Source: Amanita rubescens (taxonomy: Eukaryota > Basidiomycota > Agaricomycetes > Agaricales > Amanitaceae). From it: a DNA stretch of 64,000 bases. Both the position numbers and the translations under genes were made by a program. Below, piece by piece: positions 15,921 to 64,000 of the stretch. Every line of letters starts with the position of its first letter. The first letter of the stretch is position 1. The DNA lies in the NCBI GenBank assembly GCA_015039365.1, contig WION01000261.1, positions 1-64,000 of the forward strand, given 5' to 3'. Under the pieces are notes generated by a model. It worked only from the letters and a program-made list of their open reading frames with translations, ran no database searches and was not told the origin of the DNA.

Positions 15921-15967
15921 AAATTAGAAAAAATTGCTATAAATGAACAGTTGAAGTTGTATTGTAC

Positions 15968-18900
15968 AATCTGTACACAGGTGACAGTAGTATCATCATT
16001 AAAATCTAAAATGTTGCACATTGATCCCACTTACTGGCTGTGAAATTCAGATGGAGACATGGCATTGCTAAAAAGAATGAGGGTTTCTCACGACCCTGTT
16101 TGATCACCAGAATAATATGAGAAGGGCACTCTACAGGTTAAATTTGAGGGACTTACAAACTGTTGTCCAATGTCATGTTACACTGAGATCTCTCTACTAG
16201 ATATAGACACAAATTGGCACTTACATTCTGTCAGTCATAATAAGACTGCTGCCTGGATGAAAGAAATGTGCTATGCAATGACATACATACTAGGATTCAT
16301 TGGTGGGTATTTTATAGGAAGATGAAATGCAGTGCCACTCAAATTCTATTCCATCATTTATACAATGAGAGAGCTTGGCAAAAAGACAGTGTGATATGCC
16401 ACTGACATACTATTTATTATATCAAGTGATGAGGCCCCATGCTTGCCAAAAAATGCTACTTACTACCTGTTATGATCACAGAAATGGATTTATGAAACTT
16501 CCTAATGAATCAAAGTAAGGTGTCACTCACATACTGTTGACATGGCATGGAATATGTCAAATTATTAAGACCACCTGGCAGCAAAAAGTGTCATGCTGCT
16601 CACATGCTATCATGGTTGTTGGATTAAACAATGGTTAAGATTGCTTTGAAAAGTGCTGTATCACTTACCTGCTGTTGATGACTCTGAGATTATACTTTTA
16701 AGCAAGTAAAAGCAAAGTGAGCTTACTACCTGTCAGACAAGTCATGATACTCCACAAGTCTTCAAAAAAGAGAATGTCACTCACTCCCTGTTATTAATGG
16801 AATAAGATAAAATGGGAACAGATAGTAAAATAGTAGTATTACATCTTCCTATTGGTCATGAGCTGGGTATGATTACATGGAAGACAAAAGTGGATTATGC
16901 ATACCCCCTGGTGATTACAGGATGAGGTCTATTTAATAAAGGAAAGAATGGTATCACTTACCGTCTATTTATCATAAGATGAGTTTGCATAGAATATGAA
17001 AGTATATTGTCACTCACATACTGTTAATCATAACATGAGAAGTGATGGTGGAAAATACAATGCTACTCACTGCCTGACAATTATTAGAGGGGTTGTGATG
17101 AAACTGATTGCAAGAAAAAGTGGCTCCTCACTCACTTCCTATCGGTTATTGAGTTGTGAAGACTAGCCAGTAAATATGATTAATGTGTCACTCACACCCT
17201 GTTGTTTATTATATGCTATGAGAGGGGAAAATGGCAGGAAAAGGTGTAATTGCTCACTTCCTGTTGGAGATTGAATGTGCAGTGTCACTATCTGGTGAAA
17301 GTGTGCTCAGGTGCAATATCACTCACTCCCTGTTGGTCATAGGATTGGACAAGATTAGACTGCCAGAAACAGAAGGTAGAGTGCTACTTGCTTCCTTTTA
17401 ATCATGACACAATATATGAGATGAGATTGTTAGACAACTGTTCATTGTCACTTACTAGCTGATCATCAAGAATGAGTTGTGTGTGTGATGAAACTGCCTC
17501 ATGACATCACTTACAAACTTTTGGATTACATACACATGTAAAAATGTGTATAACTTCCTGAAAAAGAAGAAAGGTAGCTCACAAGCTATAGTTCATGTCA
17601 TGAGATATGCTGAAAGCCTGAAACTGTCTGATGGATGGAAGTTCACCCACATCCTATTAGTTATAAAATGGGATTGGTGAGAATGTCCATAGCCTGGGAG
17701 GACCAAATGCAGTTTACTCACATACTGGGTAATGTGAAAAGGTCCAATGAGATTGCCCTGAAGACAAAATTACAAAGTCACTCACATCCTAATGAATATT
17801 TGATGAAACAGAACACTACCAGATGAAAGTCACATTCACCTTCTGTGGGTCATGGGATGCAACTTTCCAGCAAATACCCAGCAAATATGTTATGCTGCTC
17901 ACCTCCTGTTTACAGTGGTGTAATGTGGCCATGAGGTTGCCCAGCAGATGAGATCACAGTGCCACTTACAAGCTAAATATTGTAGTGGTGGTGGATGACA
18001 AGGGATTGCCTTGAGAGAAAAGGTGGGGTTGCTCACATACTGAATGGGATGTGATGTGATTGTGAATGGAAAATAAAATAACCTCATATTCTAATATGAT
18101 ACCACATGGTGAGACTGCCTACCAGAAAAATAGTGAAGTTTTACTCACTTCCTGAAGGCAATGAGAAGTTAGTACTTCATGAAATATGCAGCACTGTCTT
18201 ACTTTCTGTTGATCATGGATGATATGTGATACATAACTTACTTGGCAGGAAAGTGTACATTGCCACTTACTTTCTGTTCAGCATACATATGTATGATGAA
18301 GTGCAATGAGATTGTCATTCATAAAGTGAAAAGTCACATGTCACACACATACTGTTGGTAAAGAAAGGGGGGATAAATGATGTGTTTGGCATGCCCCAGG
18401 AAAAAAGTACAATGTTACTTACTTCCTGTTAGTCATGGAAAGTAATGTGGTAAGACTTGGTGGCAAACAAAAGTAAAGTGTCACCTACATTCTTTGCACC
18501 ATATGGCATGGGGTCAGGTGATCACTGCCATTGTGAAAAAACAAGTATGGTATGACTCACTCTCTGTTGGTGATGGAATAATGGAATGAGAATTGCTTAA
18601 GAAAATGACACTGTTACTTGCTTCCTGTTGGTCAGGTATTATTTCTAAGACTGTCCATTAACAAACAAGCAGCACCACTAACTTTCTATGTATATTTAAC
18701 AGTCAGACATTCAGAGAAATATGCAGTTATACTTACAAACTTTTGGCCAATGGTTATGATGTAAGTTGTGATTAAATGTTATGTTTAATAAAATGAAGCA
18801 TTACCCACCCACTGTTGGTCATGGGATGTTCATAAATGTTTGCTTTGCTGATAAAATTGATGCTTCACATACTTTCTGATGCAGACAGTGGGATGCAAGT

Positions 18901-19583
18901 GAGACTCAAATAAATTCTCTACTCACTTCCTATTGTTCATGATGGAATGCAATTTGATGATATTGTTGGTCATAAAATGCTGTTGCTCATTACTCACATG
19001 CTGTTAATCATCAGAAGAGACATGATGAGACTACTACTTCTTCTTTGTATCACATTGAATGACACTCACATACTGTTAGTTTGGACTGAGACTTGATGAG
19101 ACTTCATACAAAGATTAGTGTACTGACATCCTGTTGCAGTTGCAAAGTGCTGCATGTATGTGTAGAAATAGAGGACTTACATCCTACATATTGGTCATCA
19201 TGTGACAAAAGGAATTGCTTATAAGTGCAGAAGCACTCACCTCCTGGTACAATGGGCTATCTACATTTCTGAAAGTTAAGTATCACTTACAGTCTGTGTT
19301 GGTTGGCATGAGTTGTGTGACTAGAAATGGGGAAGTTACACGCACTTGCTTTTGGCAATGCAATCAGACCTCAGTGGTATCATTCACTGAACATCACATA
19401 CCCACTTTTGTCTATTGCATTAGATGGGTTGCATGTGCAGTTATAATATTGCTCACTTTCATCAAAAAATGCTAGATTCAATATTGCATTATATTAGCAT
19501 TCCAGGGTTAAGCTGAATTATGCACATCCTATTTGTCATGGTATTTAGAAAATGACTTGACAGCAAGACAGTGCACTCACACT
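15968..19583 (-). repeat. Array of one-codon exons and ~57-nt introns, copy 1
   Basis: On the minus strand the pattern acceptor (AACAG, ATAG, AAAG), three bases, donor (GTGAGT, GTAAGT, sometimes GTATGT or GCAAGT) recurs about every 60 bases. Codons in order start AGT, GAT, then a 15-nt exon (19468-19454 region, HFLMK), TGG, CAA, ACT, GAG, GAT, GAT, TAT, CAT, GAA, AAA, TGG, TTT, AAA, GAA, AGA. They end ...TTT, GGTC, CCA, ATT. About 55 such exons, none a stop codon. The introns between them are alignable with one another. See copy 2 for the better preserved version. Confidence 0.75.
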
Positions 19584-21841
19584 CTGATTCATATGTTTTA
19601 CCATCTACTATTTGATCTGTGAAAAGCACAGGACTTACCTTTTTGATGAACTTGCCTGGGCTTAACTTCTATCTTGTCAAAGGCATTTACACTTACCCAA
19701 AAGTATGGAAAGCAGTTGAGGGCATCCCAAATAACTTCACTCCATGAACGCCCATGATGAACCAAGGCTTGTCTGAAAATTGTCAAAATTCATAGCTGGA
19801 AATTGGAATATGAGATTTTATGACACTCACTTAAGGGCTGACTTGACACAAAGATTAAGATTGTTCATTTGTGTTGAGACAAAAAGCTCATATAGGCTGG
19901 AATCATTAATTGCATCAGCAGTTTTCTCAGTCAGTTCAGGACAGTCCATCTCTGGTGTATCCAAGTCTGTTGAGTCAGTGATTAACAAGAAATTTACTGT
20001 ATCAGGATATGGGCATCTATCATGAATGTTACTTATCCACACCTTGCAAGTGCACATATGCCTTTGGAGGAAATTGAGCATTTAAGACTTTGGAAAGGAA
20101 TGCCTCCTGGAAGATAATATCAGCTTTTTCTTCAGCTTTAGACCACCTAGTATCTGATCCATCTTGTTCTTCATTCAATTTAGCATATTCCTGAATCACC
20201 AGAGCATCAAATTTGGTGAATGCATTCACCAAAGGGACTGTGAACATCCCATTTAGGACACAATATCCAAATTCAATAAAAGCAGAAAATTGACTCAGCT
20301 TACCTTTCCCTGTCCCTTTAGTAAAGAACTCAAGTTCTGATGATAGAATGGGGCGAGAGTCATCCATGGGTATGCAATACCTAAGAAAATGTTGAAACTG
20401 GCCATGGCCATATAGAAAAAGTAAAGAATACCAAATTGCATGCAACTGATCTCCTACTTCAATTGCAGCAGATCGCCTCTCAATGAATTTCCAAACATCC
20501 TGAAGCTCCTTGTTGTCCCCAGCTTCAAACCCCTGTGAATCATGGAAGATAAAGTTACTTCCAGGGTAAGTAATCTGGTGCTCTATATTATGTAGGCCTC
20601 GCTGAAAATATTGCATATCAATCCTAAGCACAGTTTAGTTTACTCACCTCCATTGATGGTGCCAAATGCAATGAAGAAAGTTCTGATTATCTGTGTCAAA
20701 AGGGTGCCAACCCCATGTAGTACACTGGATGAAGATTGGCAAGCTTACCTTCAAGCTCAACACCATTCTGGTCATATATGATGGGCTTTGTCCCCTTTGT
20801 CACACCACAAACCTTCTCAAGGATGGTGGTCTTGCCTGCATTGGCCCTTCCTATGATAAGAATACGGAAATGGTGACATTTGTATCGCTCTTTGAGCACA
20901 TTAACGGAGCCTACATGATGAGAAATTTGAAGAGTTACTAGTAAATGTTAGTGTATGCGGATTGCGACGTACATGATTCATTTGTGATAGAAGCCTCTGA
21001 CTGCGACATGAGTTTCAAGTTGCTTGCGCTGGACGGACACAAGTCCTAGATACGGAAGACAGCCCATCAGAGTGGACCAATGTTTGTGGAGTAGGAAAAA
21101 AATACGTTACTAGAGAGCCGCGTTCAAGAAGCGACGAGGTAGGGGGTCAGATTAAAGCGGACAATGGAGATAACCGGTAATCACCTGCAATGCTTACAAT
21201 CTTGGAACGACTCGGAGTACATACACCATCTGATGATCTGATAATATATATATGCCGGGCGGCCCAGGCCTAACTCAGCCTCGTCTCCGAATTTATTCTT
21301 TTCCTATTTGAAGGAGCGAACTCCAGCTGCCGTAAAGAAGCGCGAACCTTATGACTTCATTGTCAGAGTGTAAAGCTCCCTTCACGCCCACAGATAACGC
21401 GGATGGTGTCGATTACACTATAATCATTGTCTTGTCAGCGTGCCCGATCATCGCCGGATCAGCGGATCCTGCGATCTTGGCGATCAATTCAACTGCAGCT
21501 TGCGATAAACGCAATGAATGCAGATGTGAACCGTCAATCGCAAACATATGAGACGTTCATGAGATGTTCCTTGAGCACAGGAAAGAGGATGAGCATGAGA
21601 GATTATTGATTCTGAGCACGGTGACCCATGACAATACAAATGCGATGGTACGAGCTTATAATATACATACTCTTGGGGGTCAATCCGGCTATGCGGGCTC
21701 ATTTCCCCTCCTGCCAACCAATAGCTCAGTGCAACGCATAAAAGATAACAGAAGGGAATGCCTATTGGTATTGCAATAAGTGGCTTGATCCACTACAGTC
21801 CGGCAACTGATAGTCGCACGCTCGGTGTTAGGTGGGTTGTT

Positions 21842-26486: not shown

Positions 26487-29400
26487 TCAAATATGGGAAA
26501 TCTGATCATACAGAAACATAAACAGATCATCTGGATCTGAAGGTAGCAATGCAGAATTTAGGCGATTCTTCACTTTCTCAACATTGCCCTGCTCCTTGAA
26601 CTGCTTCAAAGCTTCCATCACTGATTCATAAATTGAGTTCATCTTCACCCAGAATGCCTGCTTGACAATGATGAGGATAGCTTGAAAGTGTCAGCTTATA
26701 AGAAAGTAAATTAGGCAGGATGCATTACTAGCTAAGATTTGACAGCCTATTGGCTAATCAAACCAATATCAGTTATGTATATATGTATTAGTCCAGATAA
26801 AAGTTAGAATCTCACAGTTGTGGAAATCCCATCATCTGTTTCTTCCCCAAACAACACAAGAATTTCATCCTAAAGATGACAAAGGGTGAAATTCTAAGGT
26901 CAGTTCAGCACTAGACCTACAACCTGACATGAAGATGAAGATGCCTGCTGAGTCATCTTAAATTGTGTGCTTACCTAAACAGAGGAGAAATTAGAAAAAT
27001 TGTGAATGACAGTAAGTTGTGTTGTACAATCTGTACACAGTAGTATCATCATAAATCTAAAATGCTATACATGTGTCCCACTCACTGGCTGCAAAATCTA
27101 GATGGAGACCTGTAATTGTTAAAAAGAAAGAATATTTCTCACAACCTGTTTTGATCACCAGATGAATAAGAGAAGAGAGTCTACAAGTTTGATGGATATG
27201 AGTAACTTACAAACTGTTGTCAATGTCATTCTATGGTGAAATCTCTACCAGATATATGCACACAAACACTTACATCCTTTCAGTCATGAAATCAGACTGC
27301 AGTCTGGATAAACAAAATGTGTGTTGTATGACATACATACTAGCATTCATTGGTAGAATATTTGCAGGAAGGTGTTGAATGGACTGCCACTCACATCCTA
27401 TTGATCATTCATGTGACAACTTGGTAAAAGACAGTGTGATAATGCCACTGACATACTATCCATTATATCAAGTAATGAGACTAAATGTTTGCCAAAAAAT
27501 GGTACTTACTTCCTGTTATTGGTCATGGAAATGGACTAATGAGAAACCCAGTAAATGAAAGTAGGGTGTCACTTGCATACTGTTGACATGGCATAGAATT
27601 GTCAAGACTGCCATCCAGAAAAAAGTGACATGTTACTCACACGCTACTTATTGGAAGAGACATGGTTAAGACTGCTTTAAAAAGTGTTGTGTCACTCACC
27701 CACTGTTGATGCCTCTGAGATTATGCCCTTTGAGCAAGTAAAAGCATAGTGGACTCACTTCCTGTCAGTCACAACATGACAAGCTATGATACTACCCCCC
27801 AAAAAAGTGTATGCCACTCACTCCCTGTTATTCATGGAATAAGGTGAAATAAGGATAGATCATAAAATAGTAGCATTACTTCTTCCTGTTGGCCATGAGC
27901 TGAATGTGACTACTTGGACAAAAGAGCATGATACACACCAACTGGTGATTAAAGGATGAGATGTATCTGATGAAGGAAAGAAGGGTATCACTTGCTATCT
28001 GTTTATCACAAGATGCTGAGTCTGTATAGCATATGAGAGCATATTGTCACTCACAAACTGTCAATCATAGCATGAGACATGATGGGTCTGGCAGGCAGAA
28101 GAAATGCAATGCTAGTACTCACTGCCTGAGGATTATTAGAGGGGTTGTAATAAAACTAATTGCAAGGAAAAGTAGCTTCCTCACTCACATCCTATTGGTT
28201 ATTGGATGAGTTGTGAAGACTAACTAGTAAACATGATTACTGTGTCACTCACACTCTGTTGTTTATGAGACAGAAAATTGCCTGAAAAAGGTTTAATGGC
28301 TCACTTCCTGTTGGAGATTGAATATGTGGTGTCACTATCTGTAAAAGTGCAATATCACTCACTCCCTGTTGGTCATAGGATTGGACAAGATAAGACTGCC
28401 AGAAATGAAAGGCAGAGTGATACTTGCTTCCTTTTAATTGTGACACAGGATGTGAGATGACATGTTAGACAAGTGTCCAATGTCTCTTACTAGCTGATCA
28501 TAAGGATGAGTTATGTGTGTGATAAAACTACTTCATAATATCACTTACAAACTTGTGGATCACATATGTAAAAATTGTACAACTTCCTGTAAGAGAGGGT
28601 GGCTCACAAGCTATGGTTCATGTCATGATATGCTCAAACTGTCTGACAGATGGAACTTCACTTACATCCTGTTAGTCATGAAATGGGTTGGTGAGACTGC
28701 CTGTCACCTGGGAGAACCAAATGAAGTTCACTCACATACTGAAATTGAAAGGTCCAACTTTGAGACTGCCTTGAAGACAAAATTACAGCATCACTTACAT
28801 CCTAATGAATATGGGATGAAAGAAAGAAGACAGCTAGATGAAAGCGGCATTCACCTTCTGTTGGTCATGGGATTTGACATCCAGCAGATATCCAGCAGAT
28901 ATGTTATGCTGCTTGCCTGCTGTTACAGTGGAGTGTTGCAATGAGGTTGCCCAGCAGTGAAATCACAGTGATGCTTACAAGCTAAATATCATTGTATGAA
29001 AAGGATAGCCATATGAGAAAAGAAGGGGTTGCTCACATACTGAATAGAATGTGATGTGATGTGCAACTGGGAAATAAAGCATCACTCACATTCTTTGGAT
29101 ATACATGTGGTGAGACTGCCTATCAGAAAAATAGTGAAGTTTTACTCACTTCCTGAGGGCATATGATAAGAATACTTCATTAGATACGTTGGGGCCTTAC
29201 TTTCTGTTGATCATATATAATATGTGATAACTCTGGCAGGAAAGAGTACATTGCCACTCACTTTCTGTTGAGAATATGAAGTACAATGAGATGGCCATTC
29301 ATAAAGTGCAATGTCACTTGTCACATACATACTGTTGAAGGGTTGGGGTGTAGAGAATGTGCTCAGCACACCTGAGAAAGAAAAAGAGTAGAGTGTCACT

Positions 29401-31992
29401 TACTTCCTGTTAGCAATGGAAAGGGATGTGGTAAGACTTTTTGGCAAATAAACTAATGTGTCACCTACATTCTTAGTTGCATATGCATCATGGGGTTAGA
29501 TGATCATTGCCACTATGCAAAAAACAAGCACAGTATGACTCACTCTCTGTTAGTGATCAAAGGTAATTGAATGAGAATAGCTTAAGAAGAGGATGATACT
29601 GTTACTTACCTCCTGTTGGTCAGGTATCATTTCTGAGAAGACTGTCCATTAACAAAAAAGCAGTGCCACTAACTTTCTATGTATATTTAATAATGGGCCA
29701 TAGTCAGACATGGGTCAGAGAATACTTACAAACTGTTGGCAATCAGGTGTGATGTTGTGATTAAACATTTTGTTTCACCCACCCACTGTTGGTCATAGGA
29801 TGTCCATAAAATATTTGCCTAATAGATAAAACCAATACTTTACACACTTTCTGATGTGGATGGAGGGATGCAAATGAGGCTTAAGGGCCTATGTAAATTC
29901 TTTACTCACTTCCTATTGTTCATGGAATGCAATTGACAACATTGTTAAAATGCTGTAATGTTACTCACATGCTGTTAATCATCAGAAGAGACATGATGAG
30001 AGTACTTCCTTGCATCAAATTGAATGACACTCACATACTGTTAATTTGGAATGAGACTTGATTAGATATAAAGATTAGTGCACTGACATCCTTTTGGTTG
30101 TGAAAGCATATCAGCATGTACTAATGTGCAGAAATAAGTTTAACAGAGCACTTACTTCCTGCATATGTATTGCACATTAATGTGACAAGAAGGATTTGCC
30201 TATAGGTACAGTAGCACTCACCTCCTGGTACAATGAGCCACCTTATGTACATATCCAAATGTTAAGTAGTTCTTACAGTCTAATTGTTGGCATGAATTCT
30301 GAACAAGAAATGGGACAGGTTCATGCACTTGCTTTTGGTGATGCAATTAGACCTCATTGGCATCAGTTATATTTCATCATCACTTACCCACTGTTGTCTA
30401 TTGCATTAGATCTGGTTGCAGGTACAGTTATAATATTGCTCACTTTCATCAAAAAATGCTAATTTCAAGAAAATTGCATCACTATGTCAGCATACCAGGT
30501 TGAGCAGAATTACACACATCCTTCACCATGGTATTTAGAAAATAAATTTACAGCAAAATGTGAAAGTGCACTCACATTCTAATTCATATTTTTGAACATC
30601 TACTGTTTTAGGTATGGCTATGAAAAGCACAGTACTTACTTTTTTGATGAACTTGCCAAGGCTTAACATTACTAGTCTTCTCAAAGGCATTTACAGCTTA
30701 CCCAAAAGTATGGAAAGCAGTTGAGGGCATTCCAAATAACCTGACTCCATGAAGGCTCATGGTTAACTAGGGCTTGTCTGAAAATTGTCAAAATTTATCA
30801 CTGGAATTTGGAATGTGACTCTCACTTAAGGGCTGACTTGACACAAAGATTAAGATTGTTCATTTGTGTTGAGACAAAGAGCTCATATAGGCTGGTATCA
30901 TCAATTGCATCAGCAGTTTTCTCAGTCAATTCAGAACAGTCCATCTCTGGTGTATCCATGTCTGTTGAACAATGTATTAGTATCTCTCATGATTCAAAAA
31001 ATGTTAATTATTTTCACCTTGCAAGTGCACATATGCCTTTGGAGGAAATTGAACATTTAGAACTTTGGAAAGGTATGTCTCCTGGAAAACAGTGTCAGCT
31101 TTTTCCTCAGCTTTAGCCCACCTATCTGATCCATCTTGTTCATCATTCAATTTAGCATATTCCTGAATCACCAGAGCATCAAATTTGGTGAATGCATTCA
31201 CCAAAGGGACTGTGAATATGTCATTTAGGACACAAAAACGAAATCAATAAAAGCACTGGATTTATTTGTGTCAGCTTACCTTTCCCTGTCCCTTTAGTAA
31301 AGAACTCAAGTTCTGATGATAGAATGGGACGAGAGCCATCCATGGGTATACAATACCTATGAAAATGTTGACCAACTGGCCATGGCCATGTAGAAAAAAA
31401 TTAAGAATACCAAATTGCATGCAACTGATCTCCTACTTCAATTGCAGCAGATCGCCTCTCAATGAATTTCCAAACATCCTGAAGCTCCTTGTTGTCCCCA
31501 GCTTCAAATCCCTGTGAATCATGGAAGATAAAGTTACTTCCAGCATATGTAATCTGGTCCTCTATATTGTGTATGCCTCGCTGAAAATATTGCATATCAA
31601 TCCTAGTAAGTTTATGCAGAAGTTTACTCACCTCCATCGATGGTGCCAAATGCATTGATGAAAGTTCTGATTATTGGTGTCAAAAGGCAACCACAGCCCC
31701 ATAGTATACAGATGAAGATCAAGCATACCTTCAAGCTCAATACCATTTTGATCATATACGATGGGCTTTGTCCCCTTTCCCACACCACAAACCTTCTCAA
31801 GGATAGTGGTCTTGCCTGCATTGGCCCTTCCTATGATGAGAATACGGAAATGGCGGCATTTGTATCGCTCTTTGAGCATATTAACGGAGCCTACACGATG
31901 AGAAATTTGAAGAGTTACTACTAGTAAATGTTGATGTATGCAGATTGCAACGTACATGATTCATTTGTGTTAGAAGCCTCCGACTGCGACAT
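26487..31992 (-). CDS. P-loop GTPase gene with single-codon exon array, copy 2 (best preserved)
   Basis: Begins MSQSEASNTNESC, exon 1 31992-31956 with donor GTACGT. Exon 2 holds the P-loop GRANAGKTTILEK, exon 3 ends LHLAPSME, exon 4 carries RGIHNIEDQ and G3 FHDSQGFE, exon 6 carries G4 FTKFDAL, exon 8 ends FPYFW, and exon 9 is 12 nt (FIKK). Then come 57 exons of exactly one codon plus a 15-nt exon (HFLMK) and a 6-nt exon (EE), from 30578 to 27028. After them are DEILVLFGEETDDG (26869-26816) and a helical exon FWVKMNSIYESVMEALKQF (from 26657). A stop follows at 26489-26487; an alternative splice could extend to 26342. No broken donor or stop codon was seen. GTPases of this kind bind GTP, with switch-dependent oligomerisation in relatives; the role here is unknown. 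Confidence 0.72.
26960..26990 (-). other. Zero-length splice node (AG|GTAAGC), copy 2
   Basis: CTCCTCTGTTTAG directly followed by GTAAGCAC, with no exon between. Position and sequence match the node of copy 1. It follows the ATT codon exon and precedes DEILVLFG. Confidence 0.5.
27028..30578 (-). repeat. Array of 57 one-codon exons and ~57-nt introns, copy 2
   Basis: Reading the minus strand, each unit is acceptor, one codon, donor, at a mean spacing of 60 bases. Codons translate in order as N D, HFLMK (15 nt), W Q T E E D Y H E K W F, K E R N E Y K K E N Y L, Q K D Y D L F L E G E, S D A F I L, EE (6 nt), G E W R Y E Y D Y D F V P I. There are no stops. Most donors are GTGAGT or GTAAGT; at least four are GCAAG-type. 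Acceptors are mostly CAACAG, AACAG or ATAG. Compared with copy 1 about 40 codons are identical at matching positions, while intron interiors have small indels and many substitutions. Confidence 0.8.
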
Positions 31993-40329: not shown

Positions 40330-41015
40330 GGTGATATGGGGGTCAAGAGAGAGCATTTTTCAGTGGGAATCTGATTAAGAGATTATCTAAGTGATCCGAT
40401 CAGTCATATATTCACACAGTACATTATGGGGGGCCAACAGAGAGCATTTTTTAGTGGGAAACTGATTAAAAAATTATCTAAGTGATCTGATCAGTCATAT
40501 ATTCACACAGTACATTATGGGGGTCAACAGAGAGCATTTTTAGTGGGAAACTGATTAAAATTTTATCTAAGTGATTTTATCAGTCATATATTCACATGGT
40601 ATGCATGGGGGAGAGCATTTTTTAGTGGGAAACTGATTAAAAAATTATCCAAGTGATCTTATTAGTCATATATTCACATGGTATGCATGGGGGGGCCAAC
40701 AGAGAGCATTTTTTAGTGGGAAACTGATTAAAAATTATCCAAGTGATCTGATCAGTCATATATTCACACAGTATGCATGGGGGCCAACAGAGAGCAATTG
40801 TCAGTGGGAGACTGATTAAAAAGATTACCTAAGTGATCTGATCACTCATACATTCACATGAGGGGCCAACAGAGAGGATTTTTCAGTGGCAACTGATTAC
40901 AAGATTGCAAATGATCTGATAAGTCATGTATTCACATGGTACAACCATAGGCATTGTGGGAGTCAACAGAGAGAATTTCTTAGAGGGAAACTGAATAAGA
41001 GATTATTTAAGTTAT
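40330..41015 (+). repeat. KDZ left subterminal tandem repeats
   Basis: About seven imperfect units of roughly 80-110 bp. Shared strings are GGCCAACAGAGAGCATTTTT, AGTGGGAAACTGATTAA, TTATCTAAGTGATC and AGTCATATATTCACA. The inverse family is at 52440-52890. Confidence 0.85.
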
Positions 41016-45780: not shown

Positions 45781-46160
45781 GGTGAGAGACGTTTCAGATG
45801 TTAGTGGGTGAAGTGATTGACAATAGAGTATTTACCCTGAATCCCTGGTCTCACGAACGTAACTCTCCCATATCGGGCCAAGATCGGGCCAAGATCCCTT
45901 TTATCTGAAGAGATATACGTTACATTCAACGCATCTCTCTGGGGAGAGACAGAGGGCAGGCGATGGAGGAAGGAGGATCGGTTTTGCATTATTATAGAAT
46001 CCAGCGAATGATGCTTAAGAAATCTGGATGATTTGGACTGAGGAACTGAACAGATAAGAAGAATGGCGATTGGACTGGTTGTTGTTGAGCCGCATGCATG
46101 TAATTTGTAATACAAGCTGCGTCTGAGGGAGAGGAATCAAATCACGGTCAACTCCTTGAG

Positions 46161-46525
46161 ACTCGAAAGCTGCCAAGTCGTCTGTATGTACTACGGGCCG
46201 AGGAACTCGAACGGATCTTGGGGAGGAACCAGAACTGATAAGAGGAGACTCGAAAGTGGCCAAGTCGTCTGTACGTACTACGGACAGGGGACTGGAACCG
46301 ATCTTGACGAAGAGGAACGGGAACTGATAAGAGGTTGAGACTCGAAAACTGCCAAGTCGTCTGTACGTACTACGGACGGAGGAACTGGAACGGATCTTGA
46401 AGAAGAGGAACGGGAACTGATAAGAGGTTGAGACTCGAAAGTGGCCAAGTCGTCTGTACGCACTACGGACAGGGGAACTGGATCGGATCTTGAAGAAGAA
46501 TAGGAACTGGAACCAATACCGATAA
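46161..46525. repeat. Minisatellite, four units of 87-93 bp
   Basis: Units start with ACTCGAAAG or ACTCGAAAAC at 46161, 46248, 46340 and 46433 and share GCCAAGTCGTCTGTACG, TACTACGGAC and GAACTGATAAGAGG. Flanking stretches at about 46040-46130 and 46550-46630 (ATTGGACTGGTTGTTGTTGAG, TGTAATTTGTAATACAAG) are also copies of each other, so the block has grown in a nested way. It lies between the two KDZ-element minus-strand gene groups. Confidence 0.85.
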
Positions 46526-52439: not shown

Positions 52440-52890
52440 GAGAGTTGTATGACTGATAAGATTGCTTAAATAATGTCACTGAGCCCCATAGCCCTACTGT
52501 GTGAATATATAACTGATAAGATCGCTTAGATAGTCTCTTACTTGGTTTGACACTGAAAAATGCTCTCCGTTGACCCCCCATAATGCCTGGAGCCATACTG
52601 CGTGAATATATGACTGATAAGATCACTTAAATAATCTCTTACCTGGTTTGGCACTGAAAGATGCTCTTTGTTGACCCCCATAATGCCTGGAGCCATACTG
52701 TGTGAATATATGACTGATAAGATCACTTAAATAATATCTTACCTGGTTTGGCACTGAAAAATGCTCTCTGTTGATCCCCATAATGCCTGGACCCCTCCCA
52801 TATAAATATAAGACAGATAAGATCACTTAGATAATCTCTTACTTGATTTGGCACTGATAAATGCTCTCTGTTGACCCCATATCACCTTTG
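52440..52890 (-). repeat. KDZ right subterminal tandem repeats
   Basis: About four units of roughly 100 bp with ACTGATAAGATC, CTTACYTGGTTTG, CACTGAAAAATGCTCTC, GTTGACCCC and ATAATGCCTGGA. They are the reverse-complement family of the left subterminal repeats. Confidence 0.85.
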
Positions 52891-59108: not shown

Positions 59109-62100
59109 ATGGCAGAGACCCCTGGCAGTAGGAACAATTAAATGTATTTGACCACAACAAAACTTAAGTGCTGGATACAGACAGTGTGGAACACATTACG
59201 GCTCTGAAGGAACGATACAAATGCCCCCATTTTCGCATTCTAATTATTGGGAGAGCAAATGCAGGAAAAACAACCATTCTCGAGAAGGTTTGTGGGGTAG
59301 AGCAAGGAACAAAACCAATCATATATGATGAGAATGGTAAGCTGGATTAATGTGGCAGCCACTTTTGCATATTCATGAGTCATGACTTTATAGGCACTGA
59401 ACTAGAACCTTCTACACACCTGACACCATCAATTGAGGTGAATAAAAAAATCAATTGCAAATGTCATTGGCATTAATATGCAGCAACTTCTAGAGAGGCA
59501 CACACAATATTGAGCACCAGATTACATACCATGGGAGTAATTTCATTTTCCATGATTCTGAGGGTTTTGAATCTGGGGCAACTGAGGAGTTGGAGCATGT
59601 TTGGAAGTTCATTGGGAAGCGGTCCACTACAACTGAACTAAAAGATCAGTTGCATGCAATTTGGTATCTTTTGAATTTTGGTTGTTAACAGGATCAGATG
59701 ACTAAGATTTCTCAGGTACTGTGTACCTATGGACAGTCCCCGCCCTCTGCTATCTGCAGAACTTGATTTCTTTAATAAAGGGACAGGGAAAGGTGAGCTC
59801 TGAGGTTAATCAACACTACCACAGTGCTTGGCTTGGTATGGTGAGAAGCCTCTACTTTGCAGCAATGCATACAATTTTATATTCATGACTTGCCTGCATA
59901 TCATGCAATCTACCAGTCCAAGCTATGGCATGGCAACTAGAATTATTTTCACAGTTCCTTTGGTGACCATATTCACAAAATTTGATGGTCAAATAATAGC
60001 AGAATATGTCAAATTGAATGATATGGAGAGTGCTCAAGATAAGTGGGAGAAGGCTAGGGAGAATGGTGAAAATACTTTTCAGACAATTTATCTTCCAAAA
60101 ATATTGGATAGTAAATGTCCTCCCAAAGCCCATGTGCGACTACAAGGTGAGAGTTATGGACATTTCTTAGCAGGAGATGCCAACTCTTTGTAGATATGGA
60201 TGTTCCAGAGAACAATTGTCCTGAACTGACAGAGAAGACTGCTGATGCAATTGATGATGACATTCTACATGATCTGTTTGTCTCAACACAGATGAACAAT
60301 CTTGATCTTTGTATCAAATCTGCCCTTCAGTATGAATCACATTGACAATAACATTCCACACTTTTGACAGCATCCAGATATGTTTTGATTCAACAAGAAC
60401 CTACATGGCATGGAGTTCTCATCATGGTCCTTTCCAAGTTCCCACATTTCTGGGTATTTTAAAAATACTTTTGTGTGTAGTAAGACTGAAAGAGGGACAG
60501 GTCAATATAAAGGTGGGCTGTGTGATATCATAGGTGTCTTATTTGCCAAAATGGGTAACAGGATGTAAGTATAGTGAGATGCCCTTTATTAATTAAACAA
60601 TGATGATGATTAGAATGTATGTGACACTGTACTTCTACTGCAAGGAAGTGCAAGATGTGTAATGATTCTGCATGAACAGTTGGAAGTTCTACATGTGAGT
60701 GGTACTCTAACCCTCTCTGGATCAGGATCTGATTGTATACATATATGACAGTGGGTAAGTGGTGTGGAATAGATATAGAATTTGATAGGTTATGATCCTA
60801 CAACAGGGGGTAAGTGGCACTACATATTCTGCTACAAGTCTCATCAAATCTCATGTTCCACAACAGAAAGTAAGTGACATTGCACTTGGAAGTTCCACAC
60901 ATCACATGTGATTATGAATAGAGAGTAAGTGATTGCAGTCATACCACTCATCATTGTTGATGTATCATATGATCAGAGAGTGGGTGCATTTGTTTCTAGC
61001 ATTTTGATCCTATTTTATCTTCAGTTTTATAGGAGGTCAGTAGCATTCATTTTTTCTGCAAGTAGACCTTGTTACATACATCTTGAACAACAGAGGGTGA
61101 GTTGTTTTTATGTTAAGCTATTGCATCACTGAGTCTCATCGAGGTCTTTACTGTCCCCCCCCTATTCCCGATCGGAGTCCATCTAAGTTTTTCCAGCAAG
61201 GTAGCAGTTGTCACATTGCTTTCATGGCATACAGGCAGTGAGTGACTGAGTGTTCACTGCTAAGCAATCTGACTTTCACATCCTGTCCAACAGTATGTGA
61301 GTTATGGTGATTTCTGCTAGGAAGCGGTTCACCACACTTTTTTTTTAACAACAGGAGGTGAGTGATGGCACTGTGTTTTGTCTTGCAGTCTCAATTCATG
61401 TCATCCCATGGCCAACAGTCAGTGAGTGATAACAGCTTTTTTTGGAAAGGTAGTCTTGTTGCATCTCATATCTTTTACAACAGGAGGTAAGTCATACTGC
61501 AATTACAATGTATTTCCCACCATATCTCACCTCATGACAGTATGTGAGTATACTAGATTTTTTTCTTACAGACACTGTTATTCTGACATATACATACTAT
61601 GATCTCCTATGAAAAAAAAACAGGTTGTGAGCAACCTTTCCTCTCTCCTAGTTTGTATAAGCACATCTCATCCCACAACTAACAGTATGTAAGTCACACT
61701 ACAACCTGCTTTGCAAGACATTGTGTCCCATTTCAGCTCATGACCAACAGGTTGTGAGTGATATATATTTCAGTTTCTCCTGCCATGTGACATCATTATC
61801 ACAATCATCCATAACCAACAGAGGGTGAGTCAGTTTATTCTTATGTAGGCTCACTACATCACATCTAACAATCAACAGGATGTAAGCACTACTGTTGCAT
61901 TTCTTGCAAGGCTATTGCATCACAGCTCATTTTTTAACCAACTTTAGGCTGTGAGTAGCAGTAGTTCTTCTGCCAGGCAATCTCATCATGCCTCATACTA
62001 TCCTGATCAACAGCAAGTAAGACATGCTGCACTTTTCTGCCAGCTGCTGCATCAGGCTTCTCACTCATTAATTGACAGGATGTGAGTAGCACTTCTGTTC

Positions 62101-64000
62101 TTTGATACATGATTACATCTCATCCCACAGGGTGTGAGTAATACTGTGCTATTGCTATGAGCTATTTTATAACATTTCCAATAGCTTGTAGGTGACACTC
62201 TACTCCATAATTTTTCCAGACAGTCAGAGCATATCACTCATTGCATGTCCAACAGGATGTGTGTGACACTGCATGTTTTTCTGGGACCTGAAGTTGTCTC
62301 ATCAACCACCTTATCCTATGATCAACAGGAAGTGAGTGTTGCAATTATTGCTGCAAAGCATTTTGTCCCAACTACTTTGGCCAACAGACAGTAAGTAGTA
62401 TGCAGTGACTTTTCATGAGAAAATTGCCAAATGGTCACATCACATATGAATAAAAGACTGTATGTGGAGTTGAATATTGAAATTTGTGCAGTTTGATAAT
62501 CATATCTCATTGCCAACAGTCTGCAAGTAACATTGCAGCTTATTCAATTTCCAGCCATCTGATCTTACTCACTCAATAGGCTGTGAGTGATGCTCCAATC
62601 TTTTCTTGAGTCTCACCCTGCTGATTGTGTGATCAACAGCAAGTGTGTTTTATTGCATTTTGTTCTGCAAAAGTTATCTCATCATATTTCAACCCATGAA
62701 TAGGAAGTGAGTTTGTATGCTGCAGTTCTTTCTGCCAGGTTATCTTATACATGTCTCATACTAACAGCTTGTGAGTGAAGTTATGTTTTTCCCCTAAGCA
62801 GTCTCTTCACAGAATTTTTTCATAATCCCTAGGAAGTGGGTGACACATCCTGCCTTCAATACAGACTTCTCATCATAAAACCAACAGGGAGTAAGCCATT
62901 TATCACTTTCATCTGCTAGGTAACCCTTCACATGCCATGACAGCGTGTAAGTGACTTTGAACTACTTTCTTGAAGTCACACATCTCATTTTTTGACTAAC
63001 AGCGAGTGAGTTACATTGCTTAGTATGCAAGTGGCTTTCATCATATTTCAAACAGGGAGTGAGTGAAATTGCAATTTCTCTCACTGTGTAATTTTATTTA
63101 AGATGATCCTGGAATGGCCAAATAGGAAGTAAGTGACATTAACACTCTTTTTTACCTTCACCTTTATTCAACCTATTTCATGGTCAACAGCAAGTGAGTG
63201 ATACAGTTTTTTCAACTGCTACATTGTCTTATGCATCACATACTACAAATAAAAGCTTGTGAGTGATTCTACAGGTATGTTTTGCCTTCATTGCAATCTA
63301 ATTTAAGAACCAAAAGAGAGTGGGTCATACTCATGTTTCTCCATAAATAATCTCATAATGTCTTGATTATTAGACAGTAAGTAACACCAGATTTCTTTGC
63401 TCACTGTGTCATTTTTCATCTGACCTAACAGAAAGTGGGTAAATATTATTTGTTTCAATCAATCTTTTTATGCTAATATTATGATATGTGCATAGATTGT
63501 AAGATACACTAAGGATTCTCTAATAGCTGCCTCTTGATTTGGTGTATCAAGGCAAGTGATGAAAAAGAGCAAATAAAATATGCTGACAAACATATAAGGT
63601 TGTATGTCCACTGCTGAGATTCTATTGAAATTTTGCTCCTTCATCCTTACTAGTCTAAACTGCAATACCTCTTTGGTGATGAATCAGAAAAACTTTCAAG
63701 AATCAGTGTAAGGCCTGTGTCTGATTAATTCTGCACTATGATGCAGCTGATGTTGTAACCAGCCCACAGCCTGTCAGCTGTTAGCTGGTAAGTCACTGTA
63801 TTGTATTTGTTGTTTTATTTGACCTAATAGTTACTAAGCAACTAATATCCTTGCCAAGCTGTCATTTTGGATCAGGAAACCAATCTATGAATCAATCATG
63901 GATGCCTTGGAACAGTTTGAAAGACAAGATGATGTGAAGAAACTGAAGCTACAAATCACTTCTGAATCAATGCCTTCCAATTTGGAAGATTTAATTGCTT
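59109..64000 (+). CDS. P-loop GTPase gene with single-codon exon array, copy 3 (3' end outside window)
   Basis: Exons 59109-59127 (MAETPG), 59169-59336 (ALKERYKCPHFRILIIG, then GRANAGKTTILEK), 59394-59437, 59494-59663 (HDSEGFES), 59716-59792, 59955-60146 (FTKFDGQ), 60194-60329, 60378-60453 (ending KFPHFW) and 60501-60512 (VNIK). The phases agree throughout. The array begins with GAT 60562-60564, AAT 60614-60616, a 15-nt exon 60680-60694 (LEVLH) and TGG 60752-60754, exactly the layout of copies 1 and 2. After the array the exons QYLFGDESEKLSRIS and FWIRKPIYESIMDALEQF match the C-terminal exons of the other copies. It is diverged from them at the protein level (roughly half of residues by eye), so it is an older paralogue, on the opposite strand and about 27 kb from copy 2. 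Confidence 0.72.
60562..63498 (+). repeat. Array of one-codon exons and ~60-nt introns, copy 3
   Basis: After TGG the codons read GGG, AAA, AGA, AGA, GAG, AGG, GCA, TAT, GAG, TCA, GAG, TAT, GTT, TAT, GTT, AGG, GAT, GCT, CAA, GAT, GGT, CTT, GAT, GAA, ACA, ACT, TCT and so on to AAA and ATT (63496-63498). That is about 45 units without a stop codon. Nearly all are framed by AACAG or ATAG on the left and GTGAGT or GTAAGT on the right; one donor is GCAAGT. One intron (61093-61240) is about 150 nt and may have absorbed a lost unit. Confidence 0.8.

Follow-up and report, generated by a model that had tools for sequence, protein, structure and literature searches.

Schistosome micro-exon genes and aphid bicycle genes have exons of several to tens of nucleotides (nt) separated by introns that are not copies of each other, and the products of micro-exon genes of this type are secreted and carry a signal peptide. 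Recursive splicing uses exons of zero nucleotides, and RPS24 reportedly contains three microexons. Exons of one to a few nt have also been described. In the available text of these reports, 1-nt exons are found in APC11 of Arabidopsis (PMC4674806) and CYP621A of Fusarium (PMC12940212), plants have 1-nt exons together with adjacent 5- and 12-nt exons (PMC8831610), and lipS of Dactylellina has two 3-nt exons (PMC5639578). For APC11, intron definition combined with recursive splicing was proposed, as two introns so close to each other are unlikely to be removed together (PMC4674806). In fungi, introners, or introner-like elements, are near-identical spliceosomal introns that multiplied genome-wide and soon lose their likeness (PMC4457414). 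Here, a 64,000-nt stretch of the Amanita rubescens genome (contig WION01000261.1, positions 1 to 64,000; the window) contains a GTPase gene with 58 exons of a single codon. The evidence makes it highly probable that this array is genuine and translated, a part of a fungal GTPase gene where nearly every codon is its own exon, and that it is spliced unit by unit.

The gene lies on the minus strand at 26487..31992 and combines a GTPase domain, the array of single-codon exons and a C-terminal domain. A hand-built, exon-by-exon model runs from an ATG at 31992 to a stop at 26487 through 72 exons and 71 introns, with a coding sequence of 1365 nt, 454 amino acids (aa) and zero internal stops; 67 of the 71 introns are GT-AG and 4 are GC-AG. 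Exons 1-8 (30702..31992) are of ordinary size (35-192 nt) and encode the GTPase part, which matches the A. rubescens protein P0001, a record titled partial, at 94%. The array is entered from a 12-nt exon encoding FIKK (30640..30651). There follow, within 27028..30578, 57 exons of 3 nt, one of 15 nt (30458-30444) and one of 6 nt (GAAGAA), all in phase 0. An earlier note, made from the letters of this DNA, had described this same series of 57 stop-free one-codon exons, with the 15- and 6-nt exons inside it and the FIKK exon ahead of it, and the exon model contains each of these elements. The note had also drawn an in-frame exit straight into an exon beginning DEILVLFG; the frame is indeed kept, but a 58th single-codon exon (GTT, 26921..26923) intervenes. 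This GTT exon is preceded by a 104-nt intron holding a zero-length, recursive-type AG|GTAAG site (~26974, minus). The last three exons (54, 25 and 194 nt; 26487..26869) encode the C-terminal domain, DEILVLFG...YDQISHI, and the stop; by eye, their layout resembles the C-termini of the related proteins P0028 and P0055.

From FIKK to the last GTT (30651-26921) there are thus 61 exons: 58 of 3 nt and one each of 6, 12 and 15 nt. All 61 lengths are divisible by 3, and every junction is in phase 0. The 60 introns between them keep GT/GC-AG, with a median length of 56.5 nt and a range of 48-72 nt apart from the 104-nt intron. By size (no more than 15 nt) and by the canonical splice sites that flank them, the 58 exons of 3 nt are microexons, and a segment of the protein is built from consecutive, frame-keeping short exons, as in micro-exon genes.

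A Viterbi parser with a flat exon-length prior of 1-30 nt and a splice-site profile trained on five of the arrays assigned 3 nt to 48 of the 52 exons it placed in the window array. Forty dinucleotide shuffles of the array gave at most 0 exons of 3 nt, the opposite strand gave 0, and an untrained splice consensus recovered 49/52. The shuffles, the opposite strand and the untrained consensus exclude chance as the source of the array, which is confirmed at these positions of the window gene. Tiling of both strands of the window (3-kb tiles, threshold of at least 8 exons of 3 nt) returned three arrays, at 27031-30443 (minus), 16160-19696 (minus) and 60695-63431 (plus). The second belongs to a tandem paralog (15942..20604, minus) with GTPase exons at 20032-20250 and 20422-20604, which is similar to the first gene over 15942-19695 and in which 52/53 parsed exons are of 3 nt; in the third (60695..63431, plus), 41 of 42 parsed exons are of 3 nt. 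Across the assembly (75.7 Mb, 786 contigs), a strict search pattern for two linked units has 3832 occurrences, versus 2 for the reversed pattern, with near-identical contigs counted more than once. The arrays are therefore genome-wide, beyond what the window sequence alone could show. In locus L060, all 75 exons are of 3 nt in a length-favouring parse and 71/73 with the flat prior. The flat-prior parser was unsuccessful on locus L067, whose introns differ, and the arrays on contigs C775, C630 and C373 and the second array on C101 parse with at least one odd long exon or with fewer units.

Protein relatives, taken from the best 120 of 1153 matches, bear on whether the array codons are joined in RNA. 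Three of them, P0055 (478 aa), P0028 (461 aa) and P0040 (445 aa), are frames on contigs of 1486, 1506 and 1492 bp, respectively. The A. rubescens gene matching P0055, L059, spans ~5 kb, and P0055 reads through its ordinary GTPase introns. Because a full-length frame fits on the 1486-bp contig in this way, P0055 very likely derives from spliced RNA; the record itself is silent on this. A blind single-codon parse of L059, for which no protein was used, yields 50 residues, 40 of them identical to P0055 in an ungapped match (E 5e-27, against 121 proteins). Spliced alignment gives 52/76 identities, compared with 23-30 for 10 shuffled peptides. A search of the A. rubescens genome for an uninterrupted exon encoding the P0055 tail returned none at E 10, and an empty answer from such a search is not informative. 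P0028 and P0040 match the L059 array more weakly (E 8e-7 and 6e-8), and the translation of L060 matches P0044 (E 6e-7, first 25 columns) and P0089 (E 1e-5, first 19 columns). The earlier note had left a choice between codon-by-codon splicing and skipping of the whole array as one intron. For the gene family, P0055 supports the former, as do P0028 and P0040 more weakly, and on these sequence comparisons splicing very probably proceeds codon by codon.

The array codons also behave as coding sequence. In five arrays, 1/276 codons is a stop, versus 20.8 expected from position-wise composition, and TRA triplets number 3 in the 3832 genome-wide unit pairs. TAG among NAG triplets, a cleaner stop test given the splice donor that TRA would form, gave 0/36, among related copies that are not independent. 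Measured against 4100 codons from the family's ordinary exons, codon usage places frame 0 best or tied in 8/9 arrays, L061 being the exception. Frame 0 is likewise favoured at both array ends: by the entry, as seen in L060 against P0044 and P0089, and by the exit, which is in frame in L060 and in the window gene. A reading in frame +1, with introns inside codons and a peptide that is acidic by eye, is disfavoured by codon usage, entry frame and exit frame. In a genome-wide test of NTA triplets, 30 were followed by a purine and 44 by a pyrimidine (copies are not independent); frame +1 is not closed to stops, and purines after NTA are fewer than their 66% share among first bases. Between the tandem paralogs of the window, the codons of units 1-35 are identical at 100/105 nt (95%), versus 1403/1750 (80%) for the introns (p 3e-5), with the split at unit 35 picked after inspection of the alignment. 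Gap columns number 6 in codons, two per codon position, and 453 in introns, splice-site columns included. As the codons of units 1-35 are better kept than the introns, selection seems to maintain this first part, and the later units appear free or diversifying. A copy on C101 keeps the same 54 array codons as the window gene with 2 changes.

These observations bear on the alternative that the array does not code for protein. It would then be a degenerate tandem repeat with a unit that happens to resemble an intron plus 3 nt, and would be excised or bypassed in one piece, as a single long intron. The public A. rubescens models fit such a repeat, since P0001 ends ahead of the array and P0121 goes astray inside it, and young arrays do look like a 65-bp satellite. 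Yet array-coded residues are present in P0055, the codons of units 1-35 outlast their introns, stops are nearly absent, and the 60 introns of the window gene keep GT/GC-AG. Intron likeness is also approximately flat with distance in 3/5 arrays, unlike that of a satellite growing neighbour by neighbour. A non-coding repeat is therefore hardly credible. Annotation overlooks such segments in the public models compared (P0001, P0121).

Several observations weigh against a translated array spliced unit by unit. On the transcript side, P0044 departs from the L060 array reading after ~19 codons; the P0055 tail, used as a query, matched P0055, P0028 and the public model P0121 alone; the tail of the window gene found no transcript at E 10 among 210 candidates; and P0003, the Joint Genome Institute (JGI) protein nearest to the window gene (81%), stops short of the array. 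The RNA support is at the protein level, from a few JGI records of relatives, and the cDNA nature of their contigs is deduced from their size. On the coding side, a TRA triplet would create a GTRAGT donor over the acceptor AG, and the scarcity of TRA is not purely stop avoidance. Frame +1 is open too in young arrays. In units 36-50 of the window pair, codons (34/45) are no better kept than introns (550/709; p 0.72), and 12/13 changed codons between the two genes are non-synonymous. Finally, frame-breaking exons occur in L059 (4 nt), L061 (1 nt, together with a TGA) and L064 (two of 4 nt), L068 holds three 2-nt and two 4-nt exons, and the second C101 array (L047) is interrupted by foreign sequence that parses as 51-, 28- and 49-nt exons and is probably an insertion. 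Given these exons and this interruption, some copies are broken or misassembled, and differences in unit number could also be assembly errors.

It follows that the window gene might itself be a decayed or assembly-damaged copy, with an array that does not work there though it works elsewhere. The broken frames in L059, L061, L064 and L068 would be in keeping with this, as would the missing window-gene transcript among the 210 candidates. The window model, however, keeps its frame intact across all 71 introns, from ATG to stop, and the C101 copy retains its 54 array codons with the 2 changes noted above. A decayed window copy is accordingly judged very unlikely. Codon-by-codon reading of the window gene is supported by its relatives, by the intact ATG-to-stop frame and by partial codon conservation.

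The introns record how the arrays changed. Young arrays contain letter-identical 62-nt introns around varying codons, and one 62-nt intron occurs 352 times, letter for letter, in the genome. About 100 of these copies were listed; they lie on four contigs, the lone copy on C12 belonging to an array that the contig end truncates, and all copies inspected among them are in arrays of the GTPase family, as judged partly by eye. The same 62 letters make up 21/40 introns in L063, 26/45 in L064, 25/44 in L065 and 23/47 in L066, with varied codons between. L065 and L066 have nearly all units in common, and two neighbouring codons differ between identical flanking introns; L063 shares its old edge units with L064-L066 and has a different middle. 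As to traces of a mobile element, such as terminal repeats or a target-site duplication, a hairpin was no more stable than those of shuffles (z 0.09), and no empty site was seen. Two further loci show variants of the arrangement. L067 (C408:18500-23000) has an unrelated, mostly letter-identical 60-nt intron and exons of 2-4 nt, mostly 3; from its C-terminal exon, by eye, it looks like a diverged family member. L068 (C13:581000-584600) is a very young array of mostly identical introns whose joined exons resemble a CTA/CAA/CGA simple repeat.

One way to produce such arrays would be pure tandem duplication of an intron-plus-codon unit, after which mutation and positive selection made the codons diverge. 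Near-identical copies do differ by whole units: 8 codons are absent in C775 and C630, and YDFA is doubled in C373. Intron likeness also falls with distance in L061 and in L063 (0.888 to 0.719). In L061, units that share a codon resemble each other more in their introns (p 0.003 for the upstream intron, 0.010 for the downstream one), and L060 shows this weakly (p 0.03 and 0.15). Duplication alone, however, would require mutation restricted to 3 of every 65 bases, and in L063 the 21 introns that are letter-identical enclose mixed codons. In L060, intron interiors are 78% alike versus 36% for codon bases, and the tenth of intron pairs with the highest likeness (89%) shows a codon likeness of 33%, no higher than average. 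Codon identity is unrelated to intron likeness in the window array and in L059, and in both this likeness is flat with distance; in L060 it drops only slightly, from 0.685 to 0.666 across 30 units. Pure duplication is thus a rather doubtful account. Intron gain together with duplication, loss and exchange of units appears, on balance, to fit these patterns better than duplication and mutation alone.

The gene that hosts the array belongs to a large family, with 295 exon matches in the A. rubescens genome. Near its start, the window gene product contains an MMR_HSR1 domain (PF01926, E 2e-5); this match, above the cut-off, identifies a P-loop GTPase of the TRAFAC type. TRAFAC P-loop GTPases carry the motifs GxxxxGKT, DxxG and TKxD. 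In an alignment of 46 sequences, G48, G53, K54, T55, S115 and G117 are invariant, and D114, T183, K184, F185 and D186 are invariant or nearly so. A profile of the 46 family proteins has weak matches to 10 sequences of solved GTPases (best E 2e-4), chiefly near the P-loop; one of these is a septin, matched over positions 9-180 of the profile. NCBIfam gave no match above its cut-offs, and Rfam nothing at gathering scores. The array-coded tail sits between the GTPase and C-terminal domains, and its middle differs, by eye, between P0028 and P0040 although their GTPase parts are nearly identical. In the public A. rubescens model P0030, known from the protein model alone, an HYW region is joined directly to the C-terminal domain.

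In the proposed mechanism, each 48-72-nt intron would be recognised as a unit across the intron, by intron definition; splice-site pairing across the intron is usual in fungi for introns this short. As neighbouring introns, 3 nt apart, cannot be removed at once, they would have to leave one at a time, and with each removal a growing exon would gain one codon. This stepwise removal, whose order of steps is conjectural, is adopted in the same way as in the APC11 proposal, as given in the available text of that paper (PMC4674806). The product would carry a tail of ~60 residues between the GTPase and C-terminal domains. The most likely origin of the arrays is that a coding segment gained introner-like intron copies. 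Whole units may later have been gained, lost and exchanged, and the protein would lengthen or shorten by exactly one residue per unit, always in frame. The one-codon spacing is imperfect, with 2- and 4-nt exons in L067 and L068, and this explanation gives no reason for the spacing.

One possibility would be that the arrays form a codon-cassette system. Here, identical introns would act as handles for recombination and single codons as the payload, so that exchange between arrays rewrites the tail in frame and the spliceosome assembles the result; the tail would be a rapidly diversified recognition surface, for example between self and non-self. The genome is rich in WD40-repeat genes, and the GTPase copies are many, which provides a context for this proposal. 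It is put forward tentatively, and that the tail serves as a variable surface for binding is a guess. Exon size and exon number have been treated as limits of spliceosome geometry, and more than 50 ordered one-codon exons are an extreme test of them. The arrays offer thousands of natural units for the study of intron definition and stepwise splicing, and identical introns around varying codons give a direct view of intron multiplication and of the codon-by-codon rewriting of a protein segment.

Elsewhere in the window, two satellites with units of ~91 and ~100 bases lie at 40336-40943 and 52490-52878 and are, by eye, reverse complements of each other. A 93-base (31-codon) repeat in 3.8 copies, possibly coding, lies at 46156-46499.

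Microexons, introners and stepwise splicing are each known, but the literature searched did not show them in this combination or to this extent. Arrays of one-codon exons were likewise absent from the full-text literature searched, most subscription papers and preprints being outside its coverage, in agreement, though not as proof, with the earlier note's remark that arrays of such exons are not described. As far as the available text of the reports goes, APC11, CYP621A, lipS and similar genes are alike in that exons as short as one to a few nt stand between introns of ordinary kind and readily escape annotation, but they have 1-3 such exons per gene, compared with 58 in one gene here and thousands of unit pairs genome-wide. 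Schistosome micro-exon genes and aphid bicycle genes also make their protein mostly from many short, frame-keeping exons; here, in contrast, there is one codon per exon, and the introns within an array are related or identical. Recursive splicing resembles the proposed mechanism in its stepwise removal, with the end of one intron abutting the start of the next, and a zero-length AG|GTRAG site is indeed found near the array end, just before the last exons, in 6/8 array loci inspected; it differs in that each step here would also leave one codon. Introner-like elements share with the arrays the many near-identical intron copies, as in the 352 exact copies of one 62-nt intron. In the available text on introners, however, the described copies lie in unrelated genes, whereas the copies inspected here stand in tandem, one codon apart, within one gene family.

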